From positions 1 to 64,000 of the forward strand of contig CAMDPX010000005.1 of NCBI GenBank assembly GCA_945905295.1: a stretch of DNA of 64,000 nucleotides, written 5' to 3'. Made by a program: the position numbers and the translations under genes. The stretch comes from Planctomyces sp. SH-PL62. Its GTDB lineage: Bacteria; Planctomycetota; Planctomycetia; Planctomycetales; Planctomycetaceae. The notes below the pieces were generated by a model that saw only the letters and a program-made list of their open reading frames with translations, made no database searches and was not told the DNA's origin. This document shows positions 8,781 through 23,916 of the stretch, piece by piece; position 1 is the stretch's first letter, and each line of letters opens with the position of its first letter.

Positions 8781-10601
8781 TTAGCCGCGCAGCACGTCGG
8801 GATCGCGCAACTTGTTTTGCGAAGCCAGCCGATACAGCTCCTCGTCCGGAGCGCTGCTCCACAACAGATACGACAACCGGCTGGCGAGCTGCCAACCATC
8901 GACGGGCTGCGGATCCGACTGAGGTTTTTCCAATGCGGGTGTTTCCAAAGCCGTCACCGGCATCGCCTCGCTGCCGAGATACAAAAACTTGGGCGAGCAG
9001 AGCACGTTCTTCACCCCCTCGCGCACGGCATTGATGAAGGACAGCTCGCGGTCGGACTTCGTCTTCAACGTCCAATTCACGATGCGATCGAGTTCGTCCG
9101 GAGTGACTTGTCGCCGGTAAGCCAGCGGCAGGAACTTGGCGAAGATCTCGCGGAGATAGGCGTCATCGTCCCGTTCCTCGCCGTCGAACAGCAGCGACTG
9201 GCGTCCCTGCGGCGGCCATTCGACGATCGGCCCTTCCCACTCCATCTTGCCGAGCCACAATCGCGGCCGCTTGGCAATGTTGAGCTTCGGGTTCCAAATC
9301 CAGTAAGGCCCTTCAAACGTCTTCCGGTTTTCGGTGGCCTTCGCGATGGTTTCTTCGAGGAGCTTCTTCTTGGCTTCGATCTCTTCTGGCGGTTTCTTTT
9401 CGCTCTTGGCCCGCGCGATGTCGCCGCCGACGATGACCTGCTTCCATTGCACGTCCCAATACAGCGGATTCGCGATGACTGCTTCCTTGCGATCGCCGAA
9501 GTCCCAACTGACTCGCCATTGACGATTCATCCCCACGGGGCCGACCTGCAGATACATCAAGAACTCGTATTCCTGCGGCGCATCGTGCGGCGCATCAATC
9601 ACGACGGTCTTCGTCATTTCGACGGGACTCGCCTCGCCGTATTTCATCGTCAGCCGCACGTCTTTGAGTGCCTCTTCATCAGTCCCTTTGAACCCACCGG
9701 CTTGGACGCGGATTCGATACCATCCGTCCCGCGTGACTCCTTTGCGACCCCAATCCACGGGGAAGAAGCGGCTGTGGGCGAGGTACTCGATGCCGCCATT
9801 CTTCATCTCCCAATCGAACGGCCCGTGAGGCACATAGCGTCGGTCCTTCGAACCCCATTGATCGAAGTTCGGCTGCGGAATCCAACTGAGCGGCTCCTTG
9901 AGATTCGCGACGACATTCGGCACGTTGCTTTCGACGAACGTGCCGGACTCATCCTTGTAAGCCGTCATCAGCCCATGCACGTACCGCTCCGCCGTGCCGT
10001 CGTAGGTCATCTTCTGAACTTTCGGCTGCTCGTGAAACACCCCTTCGTTGAGCACGATGTCAGCGACCGCCAGGTATTGATCGAGCTGTCCTTCATCCAT
10101 GAACAAGCTCGCCGCCCCGCGATCAAAGCCACCGACTTTGCCGTCGGCGGGAAGTTCCTTCTCGATGCGTCTCGCAAAATTGTCGTCGAGCAAAAACAGA
10201 TCGCGCACCGAGTTCGCATACTCGACGCGATTGAGCCGTCTCATCGGCACTCGCCCGCCGGCACCTTGAGCGGCCCGCGCCGTTTCATCGAGTCGCTCCG
10301 CCACCCACGACGCGACCGCAAACGCGGCCTTCGCGTCGGGCCGCTCAGACTTCTTGGGCGGCATCTGGCCGGAGTTGATCTTATCCATCACCTCCTTCCA
10401 AACGTTTGCCGTATTCCCGGCGGTGAAGTCGGCACCGAGTGTGTCGATCCGAAACCCCGCCCGCGCCGAATCGGCGTCGTGACACTCGACGCAATGAGCC
10501 GCGACGAATGCCTTCACGGACGGAGGCAACTCCAACGCGAACGTGCTCGCCGACAACAACGCCAACACACAACTTGCCAGCGCAAGGAATCTCATGCTCA
10601 T
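8781..10601 (-). CDS. N-terminal half of a split planctomycete cytochrome-like (PSCyt1/DUF1587/DUF1595/DUF1592) protein
   Basis: The start at 10601 (MSMRFLALASCVLALLSAS) gives a normal Sec signal. It is followed by a planctomycete cytochrome C-like motif (HCVECHD...SGQMPP), DUF1587 (RLNRVEYANSVRDLFLLDDN), a long middle region, DUF1595 (FAKFLPLAYRRQVTPDELDR), and only the first part of DUF1592 (ASRLSYLLWSSAPDEELYRL). The frame ends LRDPDVLRG-stop, exactly where intact family members continue with a VxRML-like segment; that continuation is present in the next ORF in the same frame. The gene is upstream of a DUF1552 gene on the same strand, the usual pairing. The ORF is open to 11009, but the extra 136 codons cover relic DNA and are not coding. 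Confidence 0.75.
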   Translation of the reverse strand: MSMRFLALASCVLALLSASTFALELPPSVKAFVAAHCVECHDADSARAGFRIDTLGADFTAGNTANVWKEVMDKINSGQMPPKKSERPDAKAAFAVASWVAERLDETARAAQGAGGRVPMRRLNRVEYANSVRDLFLLDDNFARRIEKELPADGKVGGFDRGAASLFMDEGQLDQYLAVADIVLNEGVFHEQPKVQKMTYDGTAERYVHGLMTAYKDESGTFVESNVPNVVANLKEPLSWIPQPNFDQWGSKDRRYVPHGPFDWEMKNGGIEYLAHSRFFPVDWGRKGVTRDGWYRIRVQAGGFKGTDEEALKDVRLTMKYGEASPVEMTKTVVIDAPHDAPQEYEFLMYLQVGPVGMNRQWRVSWDFGDRKEAVIANPLYWDVQWKQVIVGGDIARAKSEKKPPEEIEAKKKLLEETIAKATENRKTFEGPYWIWNPKLNIAKRPRLWLGKMEWEGPIVEWPPQGRQSLLFDGEERDDDAYLREIFAKFLPLAYRRQVTPDELDRIVNWTLKTKSDRELSFINAVREGVKNVLCSPKFLYLGSEAMPVTALETPALEKPQSDPQPVDGWQLASRLSYLLWSSAPDEELYRLASQNKLRDPDVLRG

Positions 10602-10836
10602 CACTCGCTGAATCTCCTGATGATCGCGTTCCACATCTGAGCGACCGTGAGATTGTAGCCAGGCTCGCCAAGAGCGTGGAGAATCGTCGATCGAGCCGCT
10701 GTTCCCCACGGTCTGGCGACCGTGGCGACCCGCGTTTGCAACTTGAACTTGATTGGTCTGTTGTCGGAGTTTCGCGAGCAAGGCGGCGGATAGAATCTCG
10801 GCCATCCCACTCGTGGTGCTCGACTTGGCTGGCAAT
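10602..10836. other. Gene-free stretch with one hairpin
   Basis: No credible gene was seen. Bases 10706-10725 form an 8-bp hairpin, CCACGGTC and GACCGTGG, with a 4-nt loop. It is close to the start of the split cytochrome-like gene and may be another small palindromic repeat. Confidence 0.5.
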
Positions 10837-11022
10837 GCGGTCGGCGCGAAGAGATCGAGCGTCAGCCGCGGCTTCGTCAGAGTGTCGGCCGATGAACTGG
10901 AGAAGTTGCGAGCTCGACCAATCTCTGACCTGCGAATGGCGGCGTTGTTTCTGGATGGCCTGACCAAGCCAATTTCGTTGTCAGTACCAAGCCAATTGGG
11001 TGGCCTCACGATTGCGATTGGC
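10837..11022 (+). pseudogene. IS256-type transposase relic
   Basis: The frame reads NAVGAKRSSVSRGFV, then LEKLRARPISDLRMAALFLD. This resembles the IS256/mutator transposase region that spans the GxSxSxVSRxF block and the first catalytic Asp (LxxLFLDG). Nothing upstream or downstream continues the transposase, and no terminal inverted repeats were seen. It is a short remnant. Confidence 0.55.
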
Positions 11023-12534: not shown

Positions 12535-15036
12535 TTAAACAGGGTGACTGAGTAATTGCCGCGTCGATCTGTCAGCGTGCAGGTCAGCCTTACCGGAGAC
12601 GATTTTGAGCAGTTCGGAACCACTCATGCGGAAGGCGGCATTATGTGGGCAGGAGTAAACGCAACTGACTTCCGCGTTGACTCCAACCACTTGGCGGCAC
12701 AAATCGCAAGTCGTCGCCTTCTGCTGAATCACAGCCTTCTGGCAACCGGAATCGGGCGGGTATTCTCGTACCACATCGAAGCCGTGCATGTTGATGTTGC
12801 CGTACGGACAGTTCTTGGCGCATTGCCCGCAGCCGATGCAGTGGTCGTCGATCACGATTTCGAGCGAACCTTTGCGGTGAATGGAATCCACCGGGCATCC
12901 GACCAAGCAGTAGGGATCCTGGCACGAGCGGCACGAACTCGCGACGAGGAATTTGTCGATCCGCTGTCCCTCGCGGATCAAACGCACGATGCCGCCATGC
13001 GTGTCGCTACACGCCCGCGTACATTCGTCGCACCGCGTGCAGCTTTCCAGATCCATGACCAACAACGTCTGAGCGTTGAACAAGCCTTGGTCCAGGAAGC
13101 TCGCCATCGGGAGTCCCATCTCCCGGTTCACCGGCTTATTCTGATCCAGGTGACTTTTGCAGATTTGGACAAACTTATTCCGCAGCTTCTCGAAGCGAAG
13201 GATCAACTCTGAAAAGTGTTCGCCGCGAATGCGAACCAGTTCCACATCGTCCAGGGCAGTACATGTGGCGGTGCGGCGCGCGACCAAGCTCTCAGGAACA
13301 TGTTGGTCGATGAGATTGGGAATCTTCGACAACAGGGCGATTTCGCCGAAGTGGCGGTTGGGGCCAATGTAATCCAACACTCGCTCCGTACCGTGAAGAG
13401 TCTGAGTGACTTTCACATAGCCGAGCCGGATCATGTAGAAGTGGCCGACAAACTCGTCGTTCTGAATCACCGCTTCGCCTTGCCGGAAGATGTTCTGGCC
13501 GGGATCGACTCGCAAGAGCGTCACCTTGTCGCGGAGGAACTCGACACACTCGTGGCGTTCCTCTTTGGTCAGATCCTGGAAGAACGAGATCGTCCGCAAG
13601 TGATCCTGCAACGCCCGCTCGCGATAGACGCGGTCGAGCATGGCCCGCGCGGCCGGATTGCGCTGGAGGACGTACAGCACGTTGCGCCGAATTTCCAGAA
13701 CTTCACCGTCACCCATTGCGACCACGGTCGCCGTGCGCGGGTGATCGCTCATGCAAGTCATCTCGCCCAAGATGAGGTGCTCGGGAGTTCTTGTGCTGAC
13801 ATGGGTGCCGTAGTCGGTCGAGTCGTTGTTGCCTGGTTTGGTCCCACGGCCAAACAGACGACCGAAGAAGCCGACTGGTCCATCGTCGGCACTCTTGCGC
13901 GGCGTGCCGATGTACACGCCAAATTCTCCTGAGTTGAGGATGAAGGCCGTCGCACCGTAGTCTCCCTGCCGGCAAAGGACGTCCCCTTTTTGGGTTTTTC
14001 GACGCACGACCGACGCCGAATTCCATTGCAGGAATTTGTACGGCACACCGGCAAACAGCGGGTGCTGCCTCAGCTCCTGCGGCGAGATGGCGGAGTACGC
14101 CGGCTTCTCGACCAGATCACGCCACCAGTCCGAGACGACCGGCCTGCGGAACGTCAGCGCATCGGTCGGGCAGGAAACCATGCACTCACCGCACGACACA
14201 CAACTCGAATCTTCCATCGGGTCGTCGAGATCGAACGCGATCTTTGCCGTGTAGCCCTTACCCGCTCGGCCGACGACAAAGTTCTTCTTGATCTCGTCGC
14301 AGGCTCGAATGCAGCGGTTGCAGAGGATGCAAGAATTGTGGTCCACCGAGATCAGCGTCGACGAGTTATCACGTCCCCGATCAACCGGGTTACGGGAGGC
14401 GAACCGAGTCGGATTGGCTCCCACCCTCTGGACGAGGGTTTCCAGTTCATTGCGAGTCTCAGGGTCTCGTTCCGGAGCACCATCCTGCTTAGGACGAAGA
14501 TGGTCCGAGGCCAACAACTCCGTCAGCACTTTGACGCTTCGCTGCACGCGCTTCCGAGCTTCCTCGTTGGTCGACTCCAGAGTATGCACTTCCATGTCCG
14601 GTTCGGCGCGATGGGCACAAGACGGCAAAAGCTTACCGCCTGAGCGCCGTTTACCGCCGGTGGTGCGAAACACCTCCACCACGCAAATACGGCACACTCC
14701 CGCCGGATTCATGTGCTCTTGATGGCACAGAACCGGAATCGGATTCACATCGCCCGGCTTCTTAACGAATAGCTTTGCCGCAGCGTCATAAATCGTCGTG
14801 CTGCGCGGGATCGTCTTGCCATCCTGGTCAGTGACGACGTTGCCTTGGGAATCGGTCGTCGGAACGGCCTTCTTGACCGTCACGGACTGGCCGTCAATCG
14901 TCAGGGTCACATCTTTGGCGTAGTCTTTTTCCGTGGCCGAAACCACTCGAATCAACTGGCCATCCACGTCGCGGGCAAATAGACCTTCGACTTCCCAGAG
15001 TTGGGATGTCGCGTCCTCATACGCGTTATCGGCCAT
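12535..15036 (-). CDS. Multi-[Fe-S] electron-wire protein with two cyclic-nucleotide-binding domains
   Basis: An 833-aa protein in three sections. Residues 40-300 resemble the N-terminus of NuoG/HoxU. They hold a [2Fe-2S] set (C104, C115, C118, C140) and two [4Fe-4S] sets (C236/239/242/246 and C279/282/285/289). Residues 325-620 hold two CRP-like cNMP-binding folds. Their phosphate cassettes are G424-E425 with R434-T-A, and F563-G-E-I-A with R588-T-A after an insertion. Residues 660-800 form a DmsB/NrfC-like ferredoxin with four more Cys sets (C666/669/672/676, C702/705/710/714, C733/736/739/743, C777/780/792/796). There is no signal peptide, so it is likely cytoplasmic. Its ATG overlaps the end of the NuoE-NuoF gene by 11 bp, which suggests translational coupling and a shared complex in which it passes electrons to or from the diaphorase. 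Regulation by a cyclic nucleotide is inferred. Confidence 0.85.
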   Translation of the reverse strand: MADNAYEDATSQLWEVEGLFARDVDGQLIRVVSATEKDYAKDVTLTIDGQSVTVKKAVPTTDSQGNVVTDQDGKTIPRSTTIYDAAAKLFVKKPGDVNPIPVLCHQEHMNPAGVCRICVVEVFRTTGGKRRSGGKLLPSCAHRAEPDMEVHTLESTNEEARKRVQRSVKVLTELLASDHLRPKQDGAPERDPETRNELETLVQRVGANPTRFASRNPVDRGRDNSSTLISVDHNSCILCNRCIRACDEIKKNFVVGRAGKGYTAKIAFDLDDPMEDSSCVSCGECMVSCPTDALTFRRPVVSDWWRDLVEKPAYSAISPQELRQHPLFAGVPYKFLQWNSASVVRRKTQKGDVLCRQGDYGATAFILNSGEFGVYIGTPRKSADDGPVGFFGRLFGRGTKPGNNDSTDYGTHVSTRTPEHLILGEMTCMSDHPRTATVVAMGDGEVLEIRRNVLYVLQRNPAARAMLDRVYRERALQDHLRTISFFQDLTKEERHECVEFLRDKVTLLRVDPGQNIFRQGEAVIQNDEFVGHFYMIRLGYVKVTQTLHGTERVLDYIGPNRHFGEIALLSKIPNLIDQHVPESLVARRTATCTALDDVELVRIRGEHFSELILRFEKLRNKFVQICKSHLDQNKPVNREMGLPMASFLDQGLFNAQTLLVMDLESCTRCDECTRACSDTHGGIVRLIREGQRIDKFLVASSCRSCQDPYCLVGCPVDSIHRKGSLEIVIDDHCIGCGQCAKNCPYGNINMHGFDVVREYPPDSGCQKAVIQQKATTCDLCRQVVGVNAEVSCVYSCPHNAAFRMSGSELLKIVSGKADLHADRSTRQLLSHPV

Positions 15037-16780
15037 TGAGATACCTTTCCACGTCAGCGGGGAAATGTTCCAAAACTGAAGTCAGCGGATTTGGAGCGAC
15101 AGTGCCCAGACCGCAGATCGCGGTGAGCACCATGGTCTCTCCCAATTCCTTAATCGATTCACGTTCTGCTTTTAGAGTCTGTGCCGTGTACTTTTTCTGA
15201 TGCAAGTCGGTGCCGATCTCGACCAGTTTTTGAGAACCGATCCGGCAGGGGACGCATTTGCCACACGACTCATTGCGATAGAACTTCTGACAACTCAGGG
15301 CTTGCTCGACCATGTCGGCATTCTCGCCATAAACAACCATTCCGCCGCCGAGCATCAGACGCAGGTCACGGAAGACGTTGGTGTCGAGTTCCAAATCCAA
15401 GATATCGAAATGCGTCGCGTCAGGTGGCAGCTTCTCTTTCACGAATTTTGCGGGCAAGTGTTTGACGGGAAGCATCGCCGGCAAGAAACCGCCCGACGGT
15501 CCCGATGGAGCGAATGCCTTGAGTGCCTGGCCGTCGCGCATGCCACCACAGAAGTCGATAATGAGCTGCCGCAGAGTGATCCCACTTGGCACCTCGTAAG
15601 CGCCGGGGCGATTGAGGTCGCCACTAATCGAAAAGAACCGCCGACCTCGCCCCGCTCCACCCCCTGTTCCCTGTGAGGCGTACCATTTGCCCTCTTCCAA
15701 AAGCACGACTGCGGGAACCCAGGCCATCGTTTCCACATTGTTTAGCAGCGTCGGCTTGTCCCACAGTCCGTTTGTTTGCAGTTCGGGCGGGCGATTACGC
15801 GGCTCGGCACGTTTATCTTGCATCGCTTCGATCAGCGCAGTCTGCTCGCCGCAGATGTAGCCGCCCGGGCTGACGAACACCTCAACCGGAAACGACACGT
15901 CCGAGCCAAGAATGTTCTTGCCGCAGAAACCGAGCTCCTCCGCCTCCTTAATCGCCTGCTCCATCACCGCGATTTGCTCTTCATATTCGTGCCGGATGTA
16001 GATGTAGCCGTGCTTTGCGCCGACAACTAAGCCGCCGAGGATGATTCCTTCCAGAACCAACCACGGCGTCCTCAGCAGCAGTTCCCGATCCTTAAACGTG
16101 CCCGGCTCGCTTTCATCACCGTTGATGACGACATATTTCTCGTCGCCTGCGGCCTCGAGAACTTCCGACCACTTTTTGAAGGTTCGGCCTCCGGCCCCTC
16201 CCATGCCAATCAAGCCGGCGGATTCCAACGCCTTGATGATCCGCGCCCGCTCAGCAGTTCGGTCGGTGCTATCGATGAATCTGCGGACGGCGGAATACTT
16301 TGGCTGGCCTTGGTAGACGTCAATTTGCCAGGTCGGCGACTGGTCGGGGAACGACGCGTCAGTGTCGGGTGTCGGCGGCGAGCCTGCCATGGTTTGCTGA
16401 ATGATCGCGCAGAGCTCTTCCGCAGATCGTTGCACATAATTTCGCGGATGATGCCCCGTCACGACGGTTGCGATCGGCGCTCGATCACAGCGGCCCAAAC
16501 AAGAGACACCCTCAACGTGCAACCGATTCTTGTCATACCCCTGCGCGAATGACTCCAATCGCTTGAGCATTCCGTCCGAGCCGCGCAAATGACACGCCAT
16601 GTCCCGGCAGACTTTGACTTCGAACTGCGGCGGTTCGTCACGCCGAAAGTGCGGAAAAAAGCTGGCCACCTCATGCAGGCGATACAGCGGCGTTCCCGTG
16701 CGCTTCGACAACGATCGCAACTCGTCGGTCGGCAGGAAGCCATGTCGGTGTTGGATGTCTTGCAATGCTTGAACGATCAT
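15026..16780 (-). CDS. NuoE-NuoF fusion: NADH dehydrogenase-like diaphorase
   Basis: A 584-aa protein. Residues 1-130 are a thioredoxin-fold NuoE with [2Fe-2S] ligands C58, C63, C94 and C98. Residues 170-584 are NuoF, with an FMN-site glycine motif GMGGAGG (192-198), the GDESEPGTFKDRELLL segment (221-236), and the [4Fe-4S] N3 ligands C506, C509, C512 and C556 (ESCGKCVPCRIG). The first glycine motif differs from the usual GRGGAGFP, as in some diaphorases of hydrogenases and formate dehydrogenases. Expected chemistry is NAD(P)H to FMN to Fe-S electron transfer, or the reverse. The start lies 6 bp after the stop of the penta-heme gene. No other Nuo subunits are nearby, so this is not complex I. 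Confidence 0.88.
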   Translation of the reverse strand: MIVQALQDIQHRHGFLPTDELRSLSKRTGTPLYRLHEVASFFPHFRRDEPPQFEVKVCRDMACHLRGSDGMLKRLESFAQGYDKNRLHVEGVSCLGRCDRAPIATVVTGHHPRNYVQRSAEELCAIIQQTMAGSPPTPDTDASFPDQSPTWQIDVYQGQPKYSAVRRFIDSTDRTAERARIIKALESAGLIGMGGAGGRTFKKWSEVLEAAGDEKYVVINGDESEPGTFKDRELLLRTPWLVLEGIILGGLVVGAKHGYIYIRHEYEEQIAVMEQAIKEAEELGFCGKNILGSDVSFPVEVFVSPGGYICGEQTALIEAMQDKRAEPRNRPPELQTNGLWDKPTLLNNVETMAWVPAVVLLEEGKWYASQGTGGGAGRGRRFFSISGDLNRPGAYEVPSGITLRQLIIDFCGGMRDGQALKAFAPSGPSGGFLPAMLPVKHLPAKFVKEKLPPDATHFDILDLELDTNVFRDLRLMLGGGMVVYGENADMVEQALSCQKFYRNESCGKCVPCRIGSQKLVEIGTDLHQKKYTAQTLKAERESIKELGETMVLTAICGLGTVAPNPLTSVLEHFPADVERYLNGR

Positions 16781-16786
16781 TAGCAG

Positions 16787-18211
16787 CTACCCCTCTAGTT
16801 TCGCCAGTTGTTGGAGCAGTAGTTTGACCGCGTCCTGAAACGTCTCGCCCGTCGGGTCGAATTCGAGTGGTGATTCAAGTTGCCCGCGGATTTTCTCCAG
16901 CGTGGATTGGCTTTCACGAACCGCCGCCTCGCGTTCACTAGTCTTAACGGGATCTCCGTTTTTCTGATTGTCCAGGTGCTCTTCTCGCAGAGCTTGATGC
17001 CACGCGGTCGTCGCCAAGTACCACTGCGCAATTTCGTCCCAGTCACCTCGAAGAGCCGGCAAACTCTTCGCCAGACGCGCGACGGTTTGCAGTGGGTTGG
17101 CAGGCGGAGTGAGCTTCGGCCGCAATGCGCCGGTGAGCGACAAAACTTTTTTGGAATCAGGATGGATCGCACTCATTGCCAGCTCAAGCTGATGCCATGA
17201 GTCTTCATTGCTCACTTCGGCTGGTTGCTGAGACAGCAAAGCGTGCCGGGGCATCGGAAAATACCAAGTTCCCCAAACCAGCGATCCAATGGGAAGCCGA
17301 CGATTCGCGGGCGTCTCACGCTGAAACAATTTCTGACGATAACTCTGCGGTCGCAGTTCGTGGTGGCAGGAATAGCAACTAATTTCTGAGAACTCCGGCC
17401 AAGTGTGCTCCTTATCCGCTCCGCCGTCGGCTTTCGCACGCGCGTCAAGCAATTCCAGGGCAGCGTTGGCTGCAACGAATTGACCAGTCAACCATACCTC
17501 AGCAGCGAAATTGGCTTGGGCCTTTTTGACTCCGTCAGGCTGGCGAACCCGATTTCGATCCTTCTCCAAATCCCAATGTGTCGGCAGGCTGTTCAAGTAG
17601 GCGGAGAATTCAAAGTTGAGGCGTGGATGTCCTGCGGCAATCAAATCATGATTGACCTCTCGCGCTGGCTCGCCGTCATGCGCAGGCGATCCGACATGAC
17701 AAACAACGCAAACCTTGGCTCGCGATGCGAGCTGCTGGGTCACCTTCATCTGGCCGGCCCTTCGCCCCGCGTGGTTGTCGCCGAGCCAATCCCCCGCGAC
17801 GCCGTGGCACGATGCGCAGCTCACGCCATCTTCCGCGAAGCCATCGGACGACGGCCGGCCCTCACCGATTGTTGCATGGCACGTCGCACATCGCTTCTCC
17901 AGAAAGGACCGATATTCTTTGGGGGTCTTTTGGGGATCGACTTTTTCAGGGAAGACGAGCCGGGCCACAATTCTTTGAGATCGGTCACCAAACAACACTG
18001 CGTAAGCATCGGCGTGAGGATCTTTAGTCGCCCAAACGGTGTAAGAGCTGTTCCATTCCCGCTTCTTCCCTGTCGCCGCCACCGAGCCACCGTGGCAGGC
18101 CGAAGCGGTGCAGGAATTCATTCCCAGCGAAACATGAGTCGCAGTTTGAGCCACCGAGGGCTCCGCCGCAGGCATCAAGATCGCTGTCAAGAAGATGGCG
18201 GTGAATGTCAT
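16787..18211 (-). CDS. Penta-heme c-type cytochrome (c554-like)
   Basis: From ATG 18211 (MTFTAIFLTAILMPAAEPSV, a Sec signal) the product is 474 aa. Four CxxCH sites are visible: CATCH 108-112, CASCH 132-136, CVVCH 168-172 and CYSCH 279-283. A fifth, wider site C34-TASA-C39-H40 lies near the N-terminus. CX4CH heme sites are known in some multiheme cytochromes. The pattern resembles cytochrome c554-type proteins, and the C-terminal 180 residues are helical with no heme site. The start codon overlaps the stop of the decaheme gene (ATGA, 18208-18211), so translation is coupled. It is probably periplasmic. The in-frame upstream start at 18301 would spoil the signal peptide. Confidence 0.85.
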   Translation of the reverse strand: MTFTAIFLTAILMPAAEPSVAQTATHVSLGMNSCTASACHGGSVAATGKKREWNSSYTVWATKDPHADAYAVLFGDRSQRIVARLVFPEKVDPQKTPKEYRSFLEKRCATCHATIGEGRPSSDGFAEDGVSCASCHGVAGDWLGDNHAGRRAGQMKVTQQLASRAKVCVVCHVGSPAHDGEPAREVNHDLIAAGHPRLNFEFSAYLNSLPTHWDLEKDRNRVRQPDGVKKAQANFAAEVWLTGQFVAANAALELLDARAKADGGADKEHTWPEFSEISCYSCHHELRPQSYRQKLFQRETPANRRLPIGSLVWGTWYFPMPRHALLSQQPAEVSNEDSWHQLELAMSAIHPDSKKVLSLTGALRPKLTPPANPLQTVARLAKSLPALRGDWDEIAQWYLATTAWHQALREEHLDNQKNGDPVKTSEREAAVRESQSTLEKIRGQLESPLEFDPTGETFQDAVKLLLQQLAKLEG

Positions 18212-19665
18212 GGTTTCGCCTCCGGCGCTCCATGACCGATGAGTGGATTCACAGAACGGATCGGCTGGTCGGCTCTGTGATACCGATGGCACTCGACGCA
18301 ATCGGCTCGCGCGCCACCGCGTTTGCCGTCAGCACTCAGTGGACCGTGACATTCAAGGCAATTCTCCCGACCTAAGATCAACACGTCCTGACTGCTCATG
18401 GACGTGGATGCTTTTGCGTGACACACAACACATTGCTCAATGGCAGGCTTCGTGGGATCCACGTTGCGATGCGAGTTGTGATCAAACCGCGCGTGCTGCA
18501 ACCAGACTTGCGGAATGTCGGCTTTCTTCACGGGCACCAGATGCGGTTCACCGGCCGGGGCATCTTGGTGACAGTGCCCGCAGACAGTCAGAAGATGCCG
18601 CTCCGCACGGCTCACTCGGTCCTTGACCCATTCCTTGGCCTCGACCGAATCGGATGCAGGCTGCGTTAAGCTTGGCACCGGCAAACGCTCGATTTTCTTC
18701 TGCAGCACGCTGGGATTTTCCTTTACGTATTCGCCCAGGTAGTTGCCTTCAACGATCTCGCGGATCGCAACTGGCGACAAGCCGTGAGGAACCACTTTAT
18801 TTTTCGATCCAGGCTCGAACGTCAAAGCGTGACAAGCGCGGCAATTCTCGTCGAACGTCACCGGCGTCATATACTGTCTGGTGGAATTCGGTTGGTGGCA
18901 TGACGAACAATCCAACTGCACCAAATCCGCATCCACCTGTCCGGGGCGTCGGTATTGCTCGCGATCAGCCTCGCTCAAATCCGCCAGGGAGAGGGAGACT
19001 TTGTCACCCGGCTTGTCACTTTTCAGTCCCTTCGCCAGATGGCGGCCGTGTGTGAACTTGATTGTCCCTGGATCACTCTTCAGCGATCGAAACTCTGGAT
19101 GAATCAGATCAAACCGAGTCACGTCCTTGAATGGGTCAGGATTGGCGACCTTTAAGTGCGATGCGAGACCGCCGTGGCAGACAGTGCAAGTTTGATCGTC
19201 CATCCGCAAGAGCGACGCGAGTTTGCCGTTGTGTTCGCGATGACAACTGGCACAGCTCGGCACTTCTTCGGGGATCTGTCGAAAATGGTGTTCGGGACCA
19301 GGATGACATTTCTCGCACTTCTCATCCGCCAGTTTATCCCAGGGACGCGGCTGCGGATTCCACTTATTGAGCAATGATGCTGCCCAGGTATCGTCTCGAA
19401 TGGGCGCGAAATCCATGTGGCACGCGTCGCATTTATTTTCCCACGTTGCATGGACGATGGCTACGGGGCCGTGCGTGTACGGGGCGTTCCGTTGCTCCCT
19501 GGCCAACAGGCTCCAGCACAACCAGACGACCGGAGTGAATACGATCGCGAACAAGGACAATTTGGACTTCCAGCGGCTCATGTCATCACGACGATGGTGA
19601 TAGCCGAACGAAATCTTGACAGCCCGCTGCTTACCAGTGACGGGAGGCTTAACTTTCGCGTCCAT
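18208..19665 (-). CDS. Membrane-anchored decaheme c-type cytochrome
   Basis: A 485-aa protein with ten CxxCH sites starting at residues 79, 117, 138, 160, 253, 275, 362, 412, 436 and 456. One hydrophobic helix at about 36-55 (LSLFAIVFTPVVWLCWSLLA) follows a basic N-terminus and probably anchors the protein with its hemes in the periplasm. Several extra His residues (for example HGRH, FDHNSH) could be distal heme ligands. The heme spacing suggests two pentaheme halves. It lies between a membrane b-type candidate and the penta-heme gene, with which it overlaps by 4 bp. The ATG at 19581 (MSRWKSK) is an alternative start. No match to MtrA/OmcA is claimed. Confidence 0.85.
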   Translation of the reverse strand: MDAKVKPPVTGKQRAVKISFGYHHRRDDMSRWKSKLSLFAIVFTPVVWLCWSLLAREQRNAPYTHGPVAIVHATWENKCDACHMDFAPIRDDTWAASLLNKWNPQPRPWDKLADEKCEKCHPGPEHHFRQIPEEVPSCASCHREHNGKLASLLRMDDQTCTVCHGGLASHLKVANPDPFKDVTRFDLIHPEFRSLKSDPGTIKFTHGRHLAKGLKSDKPGDKVSLSLADLSEADREQYRRPGQVDADLVQLDCSSCHQPNSTRQYMTPVTFDENCRACHALTFEPGSKNKVVPHGLSPVAIREIVEGNYLGEYVKENPSVLQKKIERLPVPSLTQPASDSVEAKEWVKDRVSRAERHLLTVCGHCHQDAPAGEPHLVPVKKADIPQVWLQHARFDHNSHRNVDPTKPAIEQCVVCHAKASTSMSSQDVLILGRENCLECHGPLSADGKRGGARADCVECHRYHRADQPIRSVNPLIGHGAPEAKP

Positions 19666-19749
19666 AAGTTACTCGCATCGTCGTAAGGTTGGTCTTCCAA
19701 GGCCGCCCGGTTGTCGTTTGGTCGACCTCAAAAGGCCAACCGACACCGG

Positions 19750-20808
19750 TCACCAATACTTGAGCGCCACGTAGGCATGGACGAACATCAACACCAGCAG
19801 GGCCATTGATAACGGCAGATGTATCCACAACCAACTGTGAAGCCACCAATGGAGCCGGGTTTGCAAATCGAATTGCCGGCGCTGTTCGCAGCATTCCTCG
19901 ATCGCCTCAAGGACCAGATGAGCTTCGGGATCCAGAACCGCGCGAAGCTGCCGGAAAAACTCCGCTGACCGGCTGCGGTTACTCAGCGGAGACCTGAACC
20001 GCCTGCCTCGTTCGAGGAACGGCTTAATGGTTGCATTAAACTTTTGACGCAACACCTCGCAATTTGCGACCGGAACTTGCGGCACCGGAGTTCTCAGCAA
20101 TTGCCCCGGGATCAGTTCGACTTGACGGGAGGCACCGATCACCACACGCCCGCCATCGCGTTTATCGGAGGCCTTGCTCGGCAGCGAATGAGTTTCCTTG
20201 CTCGGCTGCGGCTGCGCTGAGACTTCCGAACTCTCCTTGGGGAGACCGCAGGTGGCGAGCACTAAGTTCTGAGCATCCGCCAAAGCCATTTGCATGGCTT
20301 GCTCAATCTGCGAGTAGATCGTTTCGAGGGGCGTGTCGACGAGCATTTTGCGTGGCATATACTGCTGCATCGCCAAGCCAAAAATGCCACTGACGATCAC
20401 CATCGCGAACAAGACGGCGAGAATGGTGCTCAGCGGTCCGCCCCACACAAATCCGCTGTGCAGCAGAATCAGCGGAACCGTCAACAGGCCGAGCCAAATG
20501 TGGGCTTTCATCCATAAGCGAGCGCTGCCCCAGCGCCAGGATCTCATCATTCGTCGGGGCCACAAGAGGCACTCGAAGACAATGATTCCTCCGCCGAGGA
20601 TACCGAGGATCAGCCCGGGAGGGCTGCTTCCGCCGGGCCAGCGCGTCGCATATTGGTGAGCCCAAAAAAAGTAGCCAAACACCGCTGCAGCCGTACCGGC
20701 CAAAAAAGTGGCGAACCACTTGCGGTGCATTGCGAAGTGCTTGCGGAGGATAAGCATGGTGCGTGACAAACGTCGTAAGAGGTGATGACTGCCTGAGGCG
20801 ACGAACAC
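19750..20808 (-). CDS. Polytopic membrane protein, candidate b-type cytochrome
   Basis: A 352-codon frame with hydrophobic segments near residues 31-52, 64-85, 101-120, 125-147 and 330-350, and a large soluble loop (about 150-315). Histidines sit at positions suited to bind heme b: H103 and H117 in KAHIWLGLLTVPLILLHSGF, and H320, H324, H330 and H344 in the last helix region (HWWLHSWLWIHLP...FVHAY). Similar layouts occur in small quinone-linked b-type cytochromes. It is the first gene of the electron-transfer cluster and would be the natural membrane and quinone contact for the adjacent multiheme proteins. The true start may be the ATG at 20757 (MLILRKHF). Heme binding is inferred, not shown. 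Confidence 0.65.
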   Translation of the reverse strand: MFVASGSHHLLRRLSRTMLILRKHFAMHRKWFATFLAGTAAAVFGYFFWAHQYATRWPGGSSPPGLILGILGGGIIVFECLLWPRRMMRSWRWGSARLWMKAHIWLGLLTVPLILLHSGFVWGGPLSTILAVLFAMVIVSGIFGLAMQQYMPRKMLVDTPLETIYSQIEQAMQMALADAQNLVLATCGLPKESSEVSAQPQPSKETHSLPSKASDKRDGGRVVIGASRQVELIPGQLLRTPVPQVPVANCEVLRQKFNATIKPFLERGRRFRSPLSNRSRSAEFFRQLRAVLDPEAHLVLEAIEECCEQRRQFDLQTRLHWWLHSWLWIHLPLSMALLVLMFVHAYVALKYW

Positions 20809-21516: not shown

Positions 21517-23916
21517 ATGGAAGATCGCCTGCGGATCATGCTACAGACGGCGGGGCTGAGCCTCTGTCTGATGGTCGGTCGTGCGTTCGCCGATGACGCC
21601 TGGATCGACGCGTTTCGGCGACCGGAAGCGCCGTGGATCACGCTGGAATGGTCCTCGCCGAGTGATCGCGAACTGCCACGAATCCGGCTCGTGAAGCAAG
21701 AGGTACAGCCGCAGCAACCGCCGACGGCACCGGCGCTGGAATTGCCCGCCCCATTGCCCTCTGCGGCAAGCGAATTCTCAACATCGTTGTTCGCCTCTTC
21801 GGAATCAGCGCGAAGTCAATTGTCTTCCGTGCGCAAAGAGCGGTTGAGGGCGGGTTCGGATGTGATTAGCGGTGGCGAATCGCGAAGTCGGCAGACTTCG
21901 GATGCAGGGAGCTTGTTGCGAAAGTCTTCGACCGCACTGGGGGTGGGCACACAGCGACGAAATCCCATCGTGTCCGATCCACGAGTTCGCGGGTCGCGAG
22001 TCGGACAGCTTGCCGCTTCGGGATCTCACTGGGTTCCCGCGCGGATCGACCTCGACACGATGCTCAACAAATTGGACTCGCGGATCATCGACGACATCAT
22101 CGTTGTGAAGGGGCCGTATTCGGCGCTCTATGGTCCCGACCTGCGTTTCATCGACGTCGAGCTGCTGGCCTCACCGCGGTTCGAGGATGGCTGGCAATTG
22201 GGAGGCAGCACATCGCTCAACTATCAGACGAACGGCGAGCAGTGGTATGGCCGGCAAACCTTCGAGGGGGGCGAGAATGATTGGGGCTTCCGCGTTGGCT
22301 ACGGGCACAAAACCGGCAACGACTATGAATCGGGCAACGGCACCGATATCCCCGCCAGTTATCAATCGCGTGATGTGGACTTCGCCCTGGGTTACGACCT
22401 GACTCAGGACAGTTCGATTGAGTTTCATTACCTGCGGCTCGATCAGACGGACGTCGAGTTCCCCGGTCAGCTCTTCGACATGGACTTCCTGAAGACCGAT
22501 GGATTTGAAGCGACCTATGAGCTGCGTAATCAAGATCATTTCGATCGGCTTGTGATCGACACCTGGTACAACAACACGCAGTTCAAAGGCAACGCGCAGT
22601 CCCCGGCGAAGAAGACACAGTTTCCGGGACTGTTCTCCCAGGTGCCGAACTATGTCGGGCTGACCGATGTTGAGACGACCTCGGTGGGATATCGCGCCGC
22701 GGGAACTTGGGAACTGAGTCAGCAAACTCGACTCACCGCCGGAACAGACCTGCGGGTGGTTCAGCAGGCGCTCGATGAGTTTTCCTCGGGAAGCGTCGGA
22801 TTCATCTTCTTCAACAACGTGAATTCGCCGCTGCCCAAGTCGCAGTCGGCCAATCCGGGACTGTTCGCCGAGCTACAGCTCGCGGCCACCGAGCAACTTT
22901 CTTTCACGGCCGGCACGCGAGTCGATTACGTCAACGCAAACGTTTTGGATTCCCCTTCCCAGGTGGGAATTGACGGAGCCTCGCTGGCGGCGATTCTGGG
23001 GACCGACCGCTTCGAGCAGAACTTCGTCCCGTGGGCGGCGTTCCTGACGGGGCGTTGCCAGATGAGTGACGACTGGGCGATGACGTTCGGCGCGGGGCAC
23101 TCGGAGCGCCCGCCAAGTTTGACCGAGCTGTATGTTGCCGAGTCCTTTTTGTTCTTGCTGCAAAACGGCGAGAACACCGCGACCGGAGACCCCTTGCTTT
23201 CGCGCGAGCGGCTCACGCAACTCGACCTGGGACTGCAATTCAATCGCGACCGATTGCGAGCCGGGGGCAACGGCTTCTTCGGTTGGGCTCAGGACTACGT
23301 CACGTTTGAAAACATGCGCGTGTTCCCCGCCGCCAATCCGCAGCAGGTCAACTTGAAATACGTCAACACAGATTTGGCCACTCTGGCAGGCTTCGAAAGC
23401 TTTCTCGAATATGACGCGACGAGTTGGGCGACATTGTTTGGTCGAGTCCATTACGTCGAGGGCCAAGATCGAACACGCAACGGAAGCTTCGCGACCAGAA
23501 TTCATGACGGAGCGAATCCCAGCATCCGCGTGGCCGGGTTGGCTCGCGGCTCTTTCAGTGGCGTCACGGGACCAAGCTCCGAGCCGTTGCCGAGCATCTT
23601 GCCGCTCGAAAGCCGATTGGGTGTGCGTGTGCGGCCACCCTCGCAATCCGCCCGTTGGTCCGCCGAGCTCTCGGCGCGAATCGTTGATCGTCAGGATCGC
23701 GTTGCAAAGAGTTTGCTGGAAACGCCGACGGCCGGCTTCACCACTTGGGATTTGCGTGGCACGTGGCAGGCCAACCGAGCGTGCTTGGTCGTGGCGGGTG
23801 TCGAGAACTTCACGAACAAGAATTTTCGCGAGCATCTCGACTTCCGCTCTTCCGGCGGCTTTCGAGTGTTACAGCCGGGGATCAACTTCTACGCTGGCAC
23901 CGAGCTGAAGTATTAA
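21517..23916 (+). CDS. TonB-dependent outer-membrane receptor
   Basis: A 799-aa protein with a signal peptide (RIMLQTAGLSLCLMVGRAFA) and a Pro-rich linker. A plug-domain fragment follows (VGQLAASGSHWVPARIDLDT, then IIVVKGPYSALYGPDL). The rest is a long beta-barrel of alternating aromatic strands ending in FYAGTELKY, a typical C-terminal barrel signal. The barrel has a RPPSLTELY segment common in TonB receptors. It should import a metal chelate or other large ligand across the outer membrane; the ligand is not readable. The plug is shorter and more diverged than usual and no TonB box is obvious. The ATG at 21517 is preceded by CAGGG; the ATG at 21538 is an alternative. A strong palindrome begins at the base after the stop. 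Confidence 0.85.
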   Translation: MEDRLRIMLQTAGLSLCLMVGRAFADDAWIDAFRRPEAPWITLEWSSPSDRELPRIRLVKQEVQPQQPPTAPALELPAPLPSAASEFSTSLFASSESARSQLSSVRKERLRAGSDVISGGESRSRQTSDAGSLLRKSSTALGVGTQRRNPIVSDPRVRGSRVGQLAASGSHWVPARIDLDTMLNKLDSRIIDDIIVVKGPYSALYGPDLRFIDVELLASPRFEDGWQLGGSTSLNYQTNGEQWYGRQTFEGGENDWGFRVGYGHKTGNDYESGNGTDIPASYQSRDVDFALGYDLTQDSSIEFHYLRLDQTDVEFPGQLFDMDFLKTDGFEATYELRNQDHFDRLVIDTWYNNTQFKGNAQSPAKKTQFPGLFSQVPNYVGLTDVETTSVGYRAAGTWELSQQTRLTAGTDLRVVQQALDEFSSGSVGFIFFNNVNSPLPKSQSANPGLFAELQLAATEQLSFTAGTRVDYVNANVLDSPSQVGIDGASLAAILGTDRFEQNFVPWAAFLTGRCQMSDDWAMTFGAGHSERPPSLTELYVAESFLFLLQNGENTATGDPLLSRERLTQLDLGLQFNRDRLRAGGNGFFGWAQDYVTFENMRVFPAANPQQVNLKYVNTDLATLAGFESFLEYDATSWATLFGRVHYVEGQDRTRNGSFATRIHDGANPSIRVAGLARGSFSGVTGPSSEPLPSILPLESRLGVRVRPPSQSARWSAELSARIVDRQDRVAKSLLETPTAGFTTWDLRGTWQANRACLVVAGVENFTNKNFREHLDFRSSGGFRVLQPGINFYAGTELKY

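Follow-up and report, generated by a model that had tools for sequence, protein, structure and literature searches.

A conserved planctomycete operon that probably encodes an NADH-driven, cyclic-nucleotide-controlled electron-export complex

Why is an NADH-oxidising protein encoded in one operon with multihaem cytochromes of the periplasm? The question is raised by a 64,000-nucleotide stretch of Planctomyces sp. SH-PL62 (GenBank assembly GCA_945905295.1, contig CAMDPX010000005.1, positions 1 to 64,000 of the forward strand; hereafter the window). Five genes, all on the minus strand and spaced by 84, -4, 6 and -11 bp, are transcribed in the order membrane protein, decahaem c-type cytochrome, pentahaem c-type cytochrome, NuoE-NuoF fusion, and an iron-sulfur (Fe-S) protein with cyclic-nucleotide-binding (CNB) domains (Table 1). 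An earlier note, made from the sequence alone, had described this tandem arrangement correctly and had read it as a redox path across the membrane that connects NAD(H), a quinone pool and periplasmic haems. The path from NAD(H) to the haems is well supported by the gene order, swapped modules, fusions and di-haem pattern described below. Judging from these sequence features, we consider it fairly probable that the operon encodes an NADH-driven, cyclic-nucleotide-controlled electron-export complex, leading from the inner membrane to a periplasmic and outer-membrane haem conduit.

Genome comparison was based on a sample of 392 Planctomycetota genomes. The profile of the membrane protein, a cytochrome b as argued below, gave 60 strong matches (E<1e-40) in 57 genomes, with the CNB/Fe-S gene lying within 12 kb in 55/60 and within 200 bp in 45/60. 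The CNB/Fe-S protein as a query matched 84/392 genomes (E<=1e-30), some of them through heads of formate dehydrogenase (FDH) type alone, and the CNB/Fe-S part is present in 66 of the 392. All five components occur together in near relatives (loci L003-L005) and at L040, L009, L043, L044 and L073. By sequence, the constant core comprises the CNB/Fe-S protein, the cytochrome b and the decahaem protein, with a c554-like pentahaem gene usually present. The window's own genome holds a further core (L074, G000:C171) that has no NuoEF: its CNB/Fe-S gene is divergent, its cytochrome b lies in an overlong frame, and decahaem and c554-like genes accompany them. Sphingobium plasmids contain the CNB/Fe-S, cytochrome b and decahaem genes, with two further families, F7 and F9 (see below), nearby; in a limited search beyond the sampled genomes, a contig scan returned Planctomycetota only, and among plasmids the core was found in Sphingobium only. 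The earlier note had staked its reading on the five genes being kept together elsewhere, and their order is indeed conserved in Planctomycetota; what it missed is that the constant core is smaller than the five-gene set and that NuoEF is exchangeable.

The NuoE-NuoF fusion recognised earlier has 2Fe-2S_thioredx (PF01257, 6e-22), Complex1_51K (PF01512, 4.5e-39), SLBB (PF10531) and NADH_4Fe-4S (PF10589, 2.6e-22) domains, all over the cut-off. By sequence it is an NADH/FMN diaphorase with 2Fe-2S and N3-type 4Fe-4S sites, in which the FMN/NADH and N3 motifs are kept (GMGGAGGRT, DESEPGTFKD and ESCGKCVPCRIG), and its nearest PDB relatives are HydB, NfnB, HoxF, FDH beta and the complex I 51 kDa subunit. 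The protein ends after NADH_4Fe-4S, with no Fer4 match for a C-terminal ferredoxin domain. NuoF goes together with a NuoG-like head on the CNB/Fe-S protein: 17/19 head-bearing loci have NuoF in the fetched stretch, those without it being L007, where the contig is truncated just upstream, and L041, a copy beside a cyclase. No NuoF was found at head-less cores in a scan of the fetched neighbourhoods. Eight head-less cores adjoin a flavohaemoprotein/NqrF-like FAD-NAD(P) reductase (FNR) with a plant-type 2Fe-2S domain, and in Sphingobium a pyridine-nucleotide oxidoreductase is fused to the CNB/Fe-S protein. On this sequence record, the NAD(P)H-oxidising part is interchangeable between lineages, and NuoEF is one of several input modules. 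Among the arguments for cytosolic NAD(P)H as the electron donor, the attachment of three unrelated NAD(P)H-oxidising modules to one core is the strongest.

Electrons from this donor would cross the membrane through the first protein of the operon. Four of its histidines (H78, H92, H305 and H319) are invariant across 30 homologs, the most distant of which has 18% identity, are all kept by remote relatives, and form two pairs, each 14 residues apart. Two histidine pairs spaced 13-14 residues on two membrane helices are the hallmark of di-haem cytochromes b, and because of this invariant spacing the protein matches the di-haem transmembrane cytochrome b pattern. Its earlier description as a "His-rich membrane protein" was right about the membrane and understated the pattern. 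The AlphaFold model (pLDDT 84.5) contains helices at 2-28, 38-55, 71-93, 100-133 and 269-325, and these, combined with a basic loop at 58-74, would fit a topology in which the N-terminus lies inside, together with domain 134-290; H78/H305 would then face the cytosol and H92/H319 the periplasm. No sequence relatives of the protein were found in Pfam, NCBIfam or PDB, where the profile search gave chance matches only. As to a cytochrome b561 or ferric-reductase fold, one remote relative matched DUF4405 (2e-5) and Ferric_reduct (4e-4) below the cut-off. The VIA-align rows were mostly soluble helical bundles; human Dcytb (5zle, Z 6.3, 136 residues at 3.8 A) was the sole membrane haem protein listed, and the cytochrome b has no clear structural match.

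NarI and the cytochrome b of bc1, both of them di-haem b proteins, react with quinones, and the cytochrome b of the operon could by analogy provide the quinone site of a dehydrogenase that links NADH, quinone and periplasmic haems, possibly with energy conservation. Those cores that show no NAD(P)H module nearby, and need another donor, would suit such an enzyme. We nevertheless regard a quinone-linked dehydrogenase as rather unlikely, because Pfam and NCBIfam gave no match to the quinone-reactive NrfD, NarI or NapC, the operon is without proton-pumping subunits, and the three unrelated NAD(P)H modules converge on one core.

The CNB/Fe-S protein would connect the diaphorase with the cytochrome b. 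Its N-terminus is a NuoG-like head with a 2Fe-2S site at C104/115/118/140 and two 4Fe-4S sites within C236-C289, its middle contains two cyclic-nucleotide-binding domains (PF00027, E 1.2e-26) at about 330-460 and 500-625, and its C-terminus is a ferredoxin of DmsB/HmcB-like type (C666-C796; four 4Fe-4S clusters), whose 16 cysteines are all kept in 35/35 aligned homologs. The seven Fe-S sets and two cyclic-nucleotide domains counted in the earlier note could thus be recovered, as one 2Fe-2S and six 4Fe-4S sites. In the window type, the head no longer has the His-Cys3 site for the N5 cluster (residues ~168-200; window 14437-14535). In some relatives, this region retains two Cys and one His (DHPAPCEKH...C).

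Is this electron path switched? The alignment of 36 CNB/Fe-S homologs has five invariant columns in total, three of which are G424, E425 and R434 of the first CNB domain (CNB1), the Gly-Glu..Arg of the phosphate-binding cassette, present in 36/36; the cassette of the second domain (CNB2) is intact in the window type and decayed in the FNR type. Class III cyclases adjoin 9/44 core loci within neighbourhoods of ~20 kb (L041, L042, L043, L065, L067, L072, L073, L097 and L098, of which L067 and L072 are close relatives), where 0.67 are expected from each genome's own cyclase count (P about 4e-8). Several of these cyclases carry FHA domains; at L041 the cyclase-FHA gene ends 34 bp ahead of the CNB/Fe-S gene, and at L043 the gap is 52 bp. 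The window locus has no cyclase, and the same genome holds 12-13 of them. Since the CNB1 cassette is invariant and cyclases are neighbours of the core, control by a cyclic nucleotide is likely on sequence grounds, in agreement with the gating that had been suggested before. To our knowledge, cyclic-nucleotide gating that acts directly on an electron-transfer protein has not been shown so far. The CNB/Fe-S protein at L068 (L068:9786-11816) has an N-terminal FHA domain of its own, as on the neighbouring cyclases at other loci, which could possibly serve phospho-dependent recruitment.

On the periplasmic side, the haem counts given by the earlier note, ten and five, were both reproduced. The decahaem protein contains 10 CxxCH motifs where shuffled sequences give 0.06, an excess that rejects chance motifs, and all ten sites are invariant in 21 homologs (20-39% identity, one nearer relative excepted). 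The pentahaem protein contains four CxxCH motifs (shuffled expectation 0.01) and one CX4CH, its haem sites are conserved across 18 homologs, and it has a c554 tetrahaem domain over the cut-off (PF13435, 2.9e-7), with a profile match to cytochrome c554 in PDB (1bvb, E 1e-10); its AlphaFold model is poor (pLDDT 62). It differs from Nitrosomonas cytochrome c554 in the extra CX4CH haem site and a long C-terminal helical domain. At L044 (12802-15969), the decahaem and c554-like proteins are naturally fused into one protein of 1056 amino acids with 14 CxxCH and one CX4CH, which argues for direct contact between the two. Pfam gave no NapC/NirT (Cytochrom_NNT) match among the five proteins, and NCBIfam NrfH scored 21 of 134 bits against the pentahaem protein, far below the cut-off.

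Where the electrons would go from the c554-like protein is suggested by two further families encoded at many core loci, F7, of roughly 530-690 amino acids, and F9, an LVIVD-repeat protein of decahaem type. F7 is present in 22/24 close-core genomes vs 17/368 others (Fisher p 2e-23), and in 31/66 genomes with any core vs 8/326 others, counts that take related genomes as independent, so that the p-values are weakened and the direction is unaffected. In the genome of the window, an F7/F9 locus lies on contig C44, and F7 is found again at a contig end on C94, next to the beginning of F9 (L104:5486-11819, L105:7227-11323); an MtrC domain was not found in this genome. An HbpS-like protein or a c554-like gene accompanies these two loci. 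Because F7 co-occurs with the close core, we infer that F7 and F9 may form an outer-membrane haem conduit.

The same wire from NADH to the periplasm could instead end in a periplasmic reductase reaction, in which nitrogen oxides, peroxide, metals or thiols would be reduced by the c554-like protein itself or by a soluble partner. The near-constant c554-like gene at core loci is compatible with this endpoint, as are divergent F7-less cores that carry other 4- and 5-haem proteins. Against it stands the almost perfect co-occurrence of the close core and F7, and none of the five proteins matched a reductase family over the cut-off; cytochrome c554 itself is an electron carrier in Nitrosomonas. A periplasmic endpoint seems to us unlikely.

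Several observations do weigh against electron export through such a conduit. The non-independence of the genomes just mentioned is one of them. F7 and F9 are not at the window locus, and the Pirellulaceae-type divergent cores are mostly without F7. The evidence that F7 is a barrel consists of weak matches to the beta-barrel family Alginate_exp in 3/8 members, and no PDB match for F7 was found. Foldseek with the cytochrome b gave no match at E<=0.001, and beside the cores L050-L064 no NAD(P)H module is seen.

For the electron-export complex we propose the following path. NADH would reduce the FMN of the NuoE-NuoF protein, and electrons would pass through its Fe-S centre(s), enter the 833-aa protein at its NuoG-like head and reach the four-cluster ferredoxin end. 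From there they would enter the cytochrome b at the haem of H78/H305, move to the haem of H92/H319, and be handed to the anchored decahaem protein and then to the c554-like cytochrome. A cyclic nucleotide from class III cyclases would bind CNB1, and in the window type probably CNB2 as well, and its binding would gate the electron flow that links the NADH part with the ferredoxin end. The electrons would most likely end up at the outer-membrane porin-cytochrome pair F7 and F9, encoded elsewhere in the genome, and the overall process would be extracellular electron transfer.

The carriers are all reversible in principle, and diaphorase modules run both ways in NAD-reducing hydrogenases, so that electrons from an extracellular or periplasmic donor might also be imported through the haems to NAD+, the reverse electron transfer that the earlier note had considered. 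Inward flow would oppose the membrane potential and run uphill from typical haem potentials to NAD+, the operon has no subunit able to couple it to ion flow, and NuoF is without the extra ferredoxin domain of bifurcating HydB. Redox potential and membrane potential both drive electrons outward, from the cytosol to the periplasm, and the reverse needs an energy input that no operon subunit supplies. Topology and energetics thus disfavour import, which we judge very unlikely, and the export direction is preferred.

Do the genes map to a complex already described? Matches to NuoB/C/D/I or antiporter-like membrane subunits were not found among the five genes or their immediate neighbours, and separate NuoE/NuoF of this genome sit on contig C14; a stray complex I fragment was rejected, given the missing subunits and the conserved partner genes. 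A remnant of a bifurcating hydrogenase or FDH was also rejected, in that no Mo/W-pterin or H-cluster catalytic domain is present, residues 315-833 of the CNB/Fe-S protein being CNB and ferredoxin domains only, and the core occurs without NuoEF. The beta subunit of a tungsten FDH (7e5z_B, aligned 2-437) is a NuoE-NuoF fusion too, and the heads of FDH alpha (7vw6_A) and HydA are the closest to the N-terminal head described here. Unlike in FDH, HydABC and HoxEFU, however, this head has lost the N5 site and is fused to CNB and ferredoxin domains beside cytochromes b and c, and NuoF does not carry the C-terminal ferredoxin domain of the HydB/Bfu bifurcating family.

Tmc, Hmc, Qrc and Dsr of sulfate reducers share with the operon multihaem c-type cytochromes, a membrane protein and a four-cluster cytosolic ferredoxin, HmcB/DsrO being resembled by the C-terminal part of the CNB/Fe-S protein; in contrast to theirs, the membrane subunit here is not NrfD or NarI by family search, and we know of no CNB or NADH modules in those complexes. 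The quinol-oxidising CymA, CbcL/MtoC/MtrH and ImcH likewise are inner-membrane entries for electrons to periplasmic multihaem cytochromes. The operon differs from the CymA type in its built-in NADH diaphorase and the cyclic-nucleotide domain in the electron path, and by the lack of NapC/NirT. The entry proteins of extracellular electron transfer analysed in PMC6295460 are quinol oxidases/quinone reductases, and the word "NADH" is absent from its text. The F7 and F9 pair can be likened by layout, barrel-like protein plus decahaem cytochrome, to the Mtr/PCC porin-cytochrome conduits; this genome gave no MtrC-domain match, and F7 no PDB match; a putative novel porin-multihaem system is described in freshwater Verrucomicrobia (PMC5615132). 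The earlier note knew of no named complex with this set, and searches of Pfam, NCBIfam, PDB and the open-licence literature gave none either. The parts are known individually and their combination is undescribed in the searched sources, which makes a credible case for a new class. We tentatively suggest, as a possibility that falls short of probable, a class of entry complexes combining quinone-free NADH oxidation, an Fe-S subunit switched by cAMP/cGMP, a dedicated outer-membrane conduit and exchangeable NAD(P)H reductases.

Table 1. Positions of the five operon genes in the window.
Feature	Position	Strand	Length	Basis and remarks
CNB/Fe-S protein	12535..15036	-	833 aa	Pfam/NCBIfam matches, homolog alignment
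NuoE-NuoF fusion	15026..16780	-	584 aa	Pfam matches, PDB relatives, motifs
Pentahaem c-type cytochrome, c554 type, predicted periplasmic	16787..18211	-	474 aa	PF13435, haem motifs
Decahaem c-type cytochrome, N-terminal membrane anchor	18208..19665	-	485 aa	10 CxxCH, c7/c3-type
Five-helix di-haem cytochrome b (predicted)	19750..20757	-	~335 aa from ATG 20757	Invariant His

The start of the cytochrome b is most likely ATG 20757, not the listed GTG 20808, because the homologs open with MLIDR/MLVDR and the window reads MLILR there. Upstream of the operon lies a divergent TonB-dependent receptor (21517-23916; PF00593 3e-20), and downstream a planctomycete cytochrome protein with PSCyt1/PSD3/PSD4/PSD5 (8781-11009). 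The window also contains one open reading frame of 12,070 amino acids (24860-61072), whose start is subtilisin-like and which contains many blocks of repeats. A distinct NAD(P)H-fed cluster was seen at L089-L095 (e.g. L093:5970-12916), with a YpdA-like oxidoreductase bearing two 4Fe-4S sites, a remote cytochrome b and cytochromes of 16-28 CxxCH; several of these loci also encode a beta-barrel-like protein. At L089-L091 the oxidoreductase is fused to the remote cytochrome b, beside 22-28-haem cytochromes, an arrangement that would once more lead from NAD(P)H through cytochrome b to multihaem c. This cluster appears to be another route by which Planctomycetota could move electrons out of the cell.

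The core defines an unnamed cytochrome b family, present in 57/392 (about 15%) of the Planctomycetota genomes sampled. Quinol is the electron source of the inner-membrane entry points that have been described for extracellular electron transfer, unlike the proposed complex, which, if wired straight to NADH, would bypass proton pumping, vent reducing power and so alter the energetics. The gating would provide fast redox control by a cyclic nucleotide, and electron export by planctomycetes would become testable in cultured relatives and in Sphingobium.

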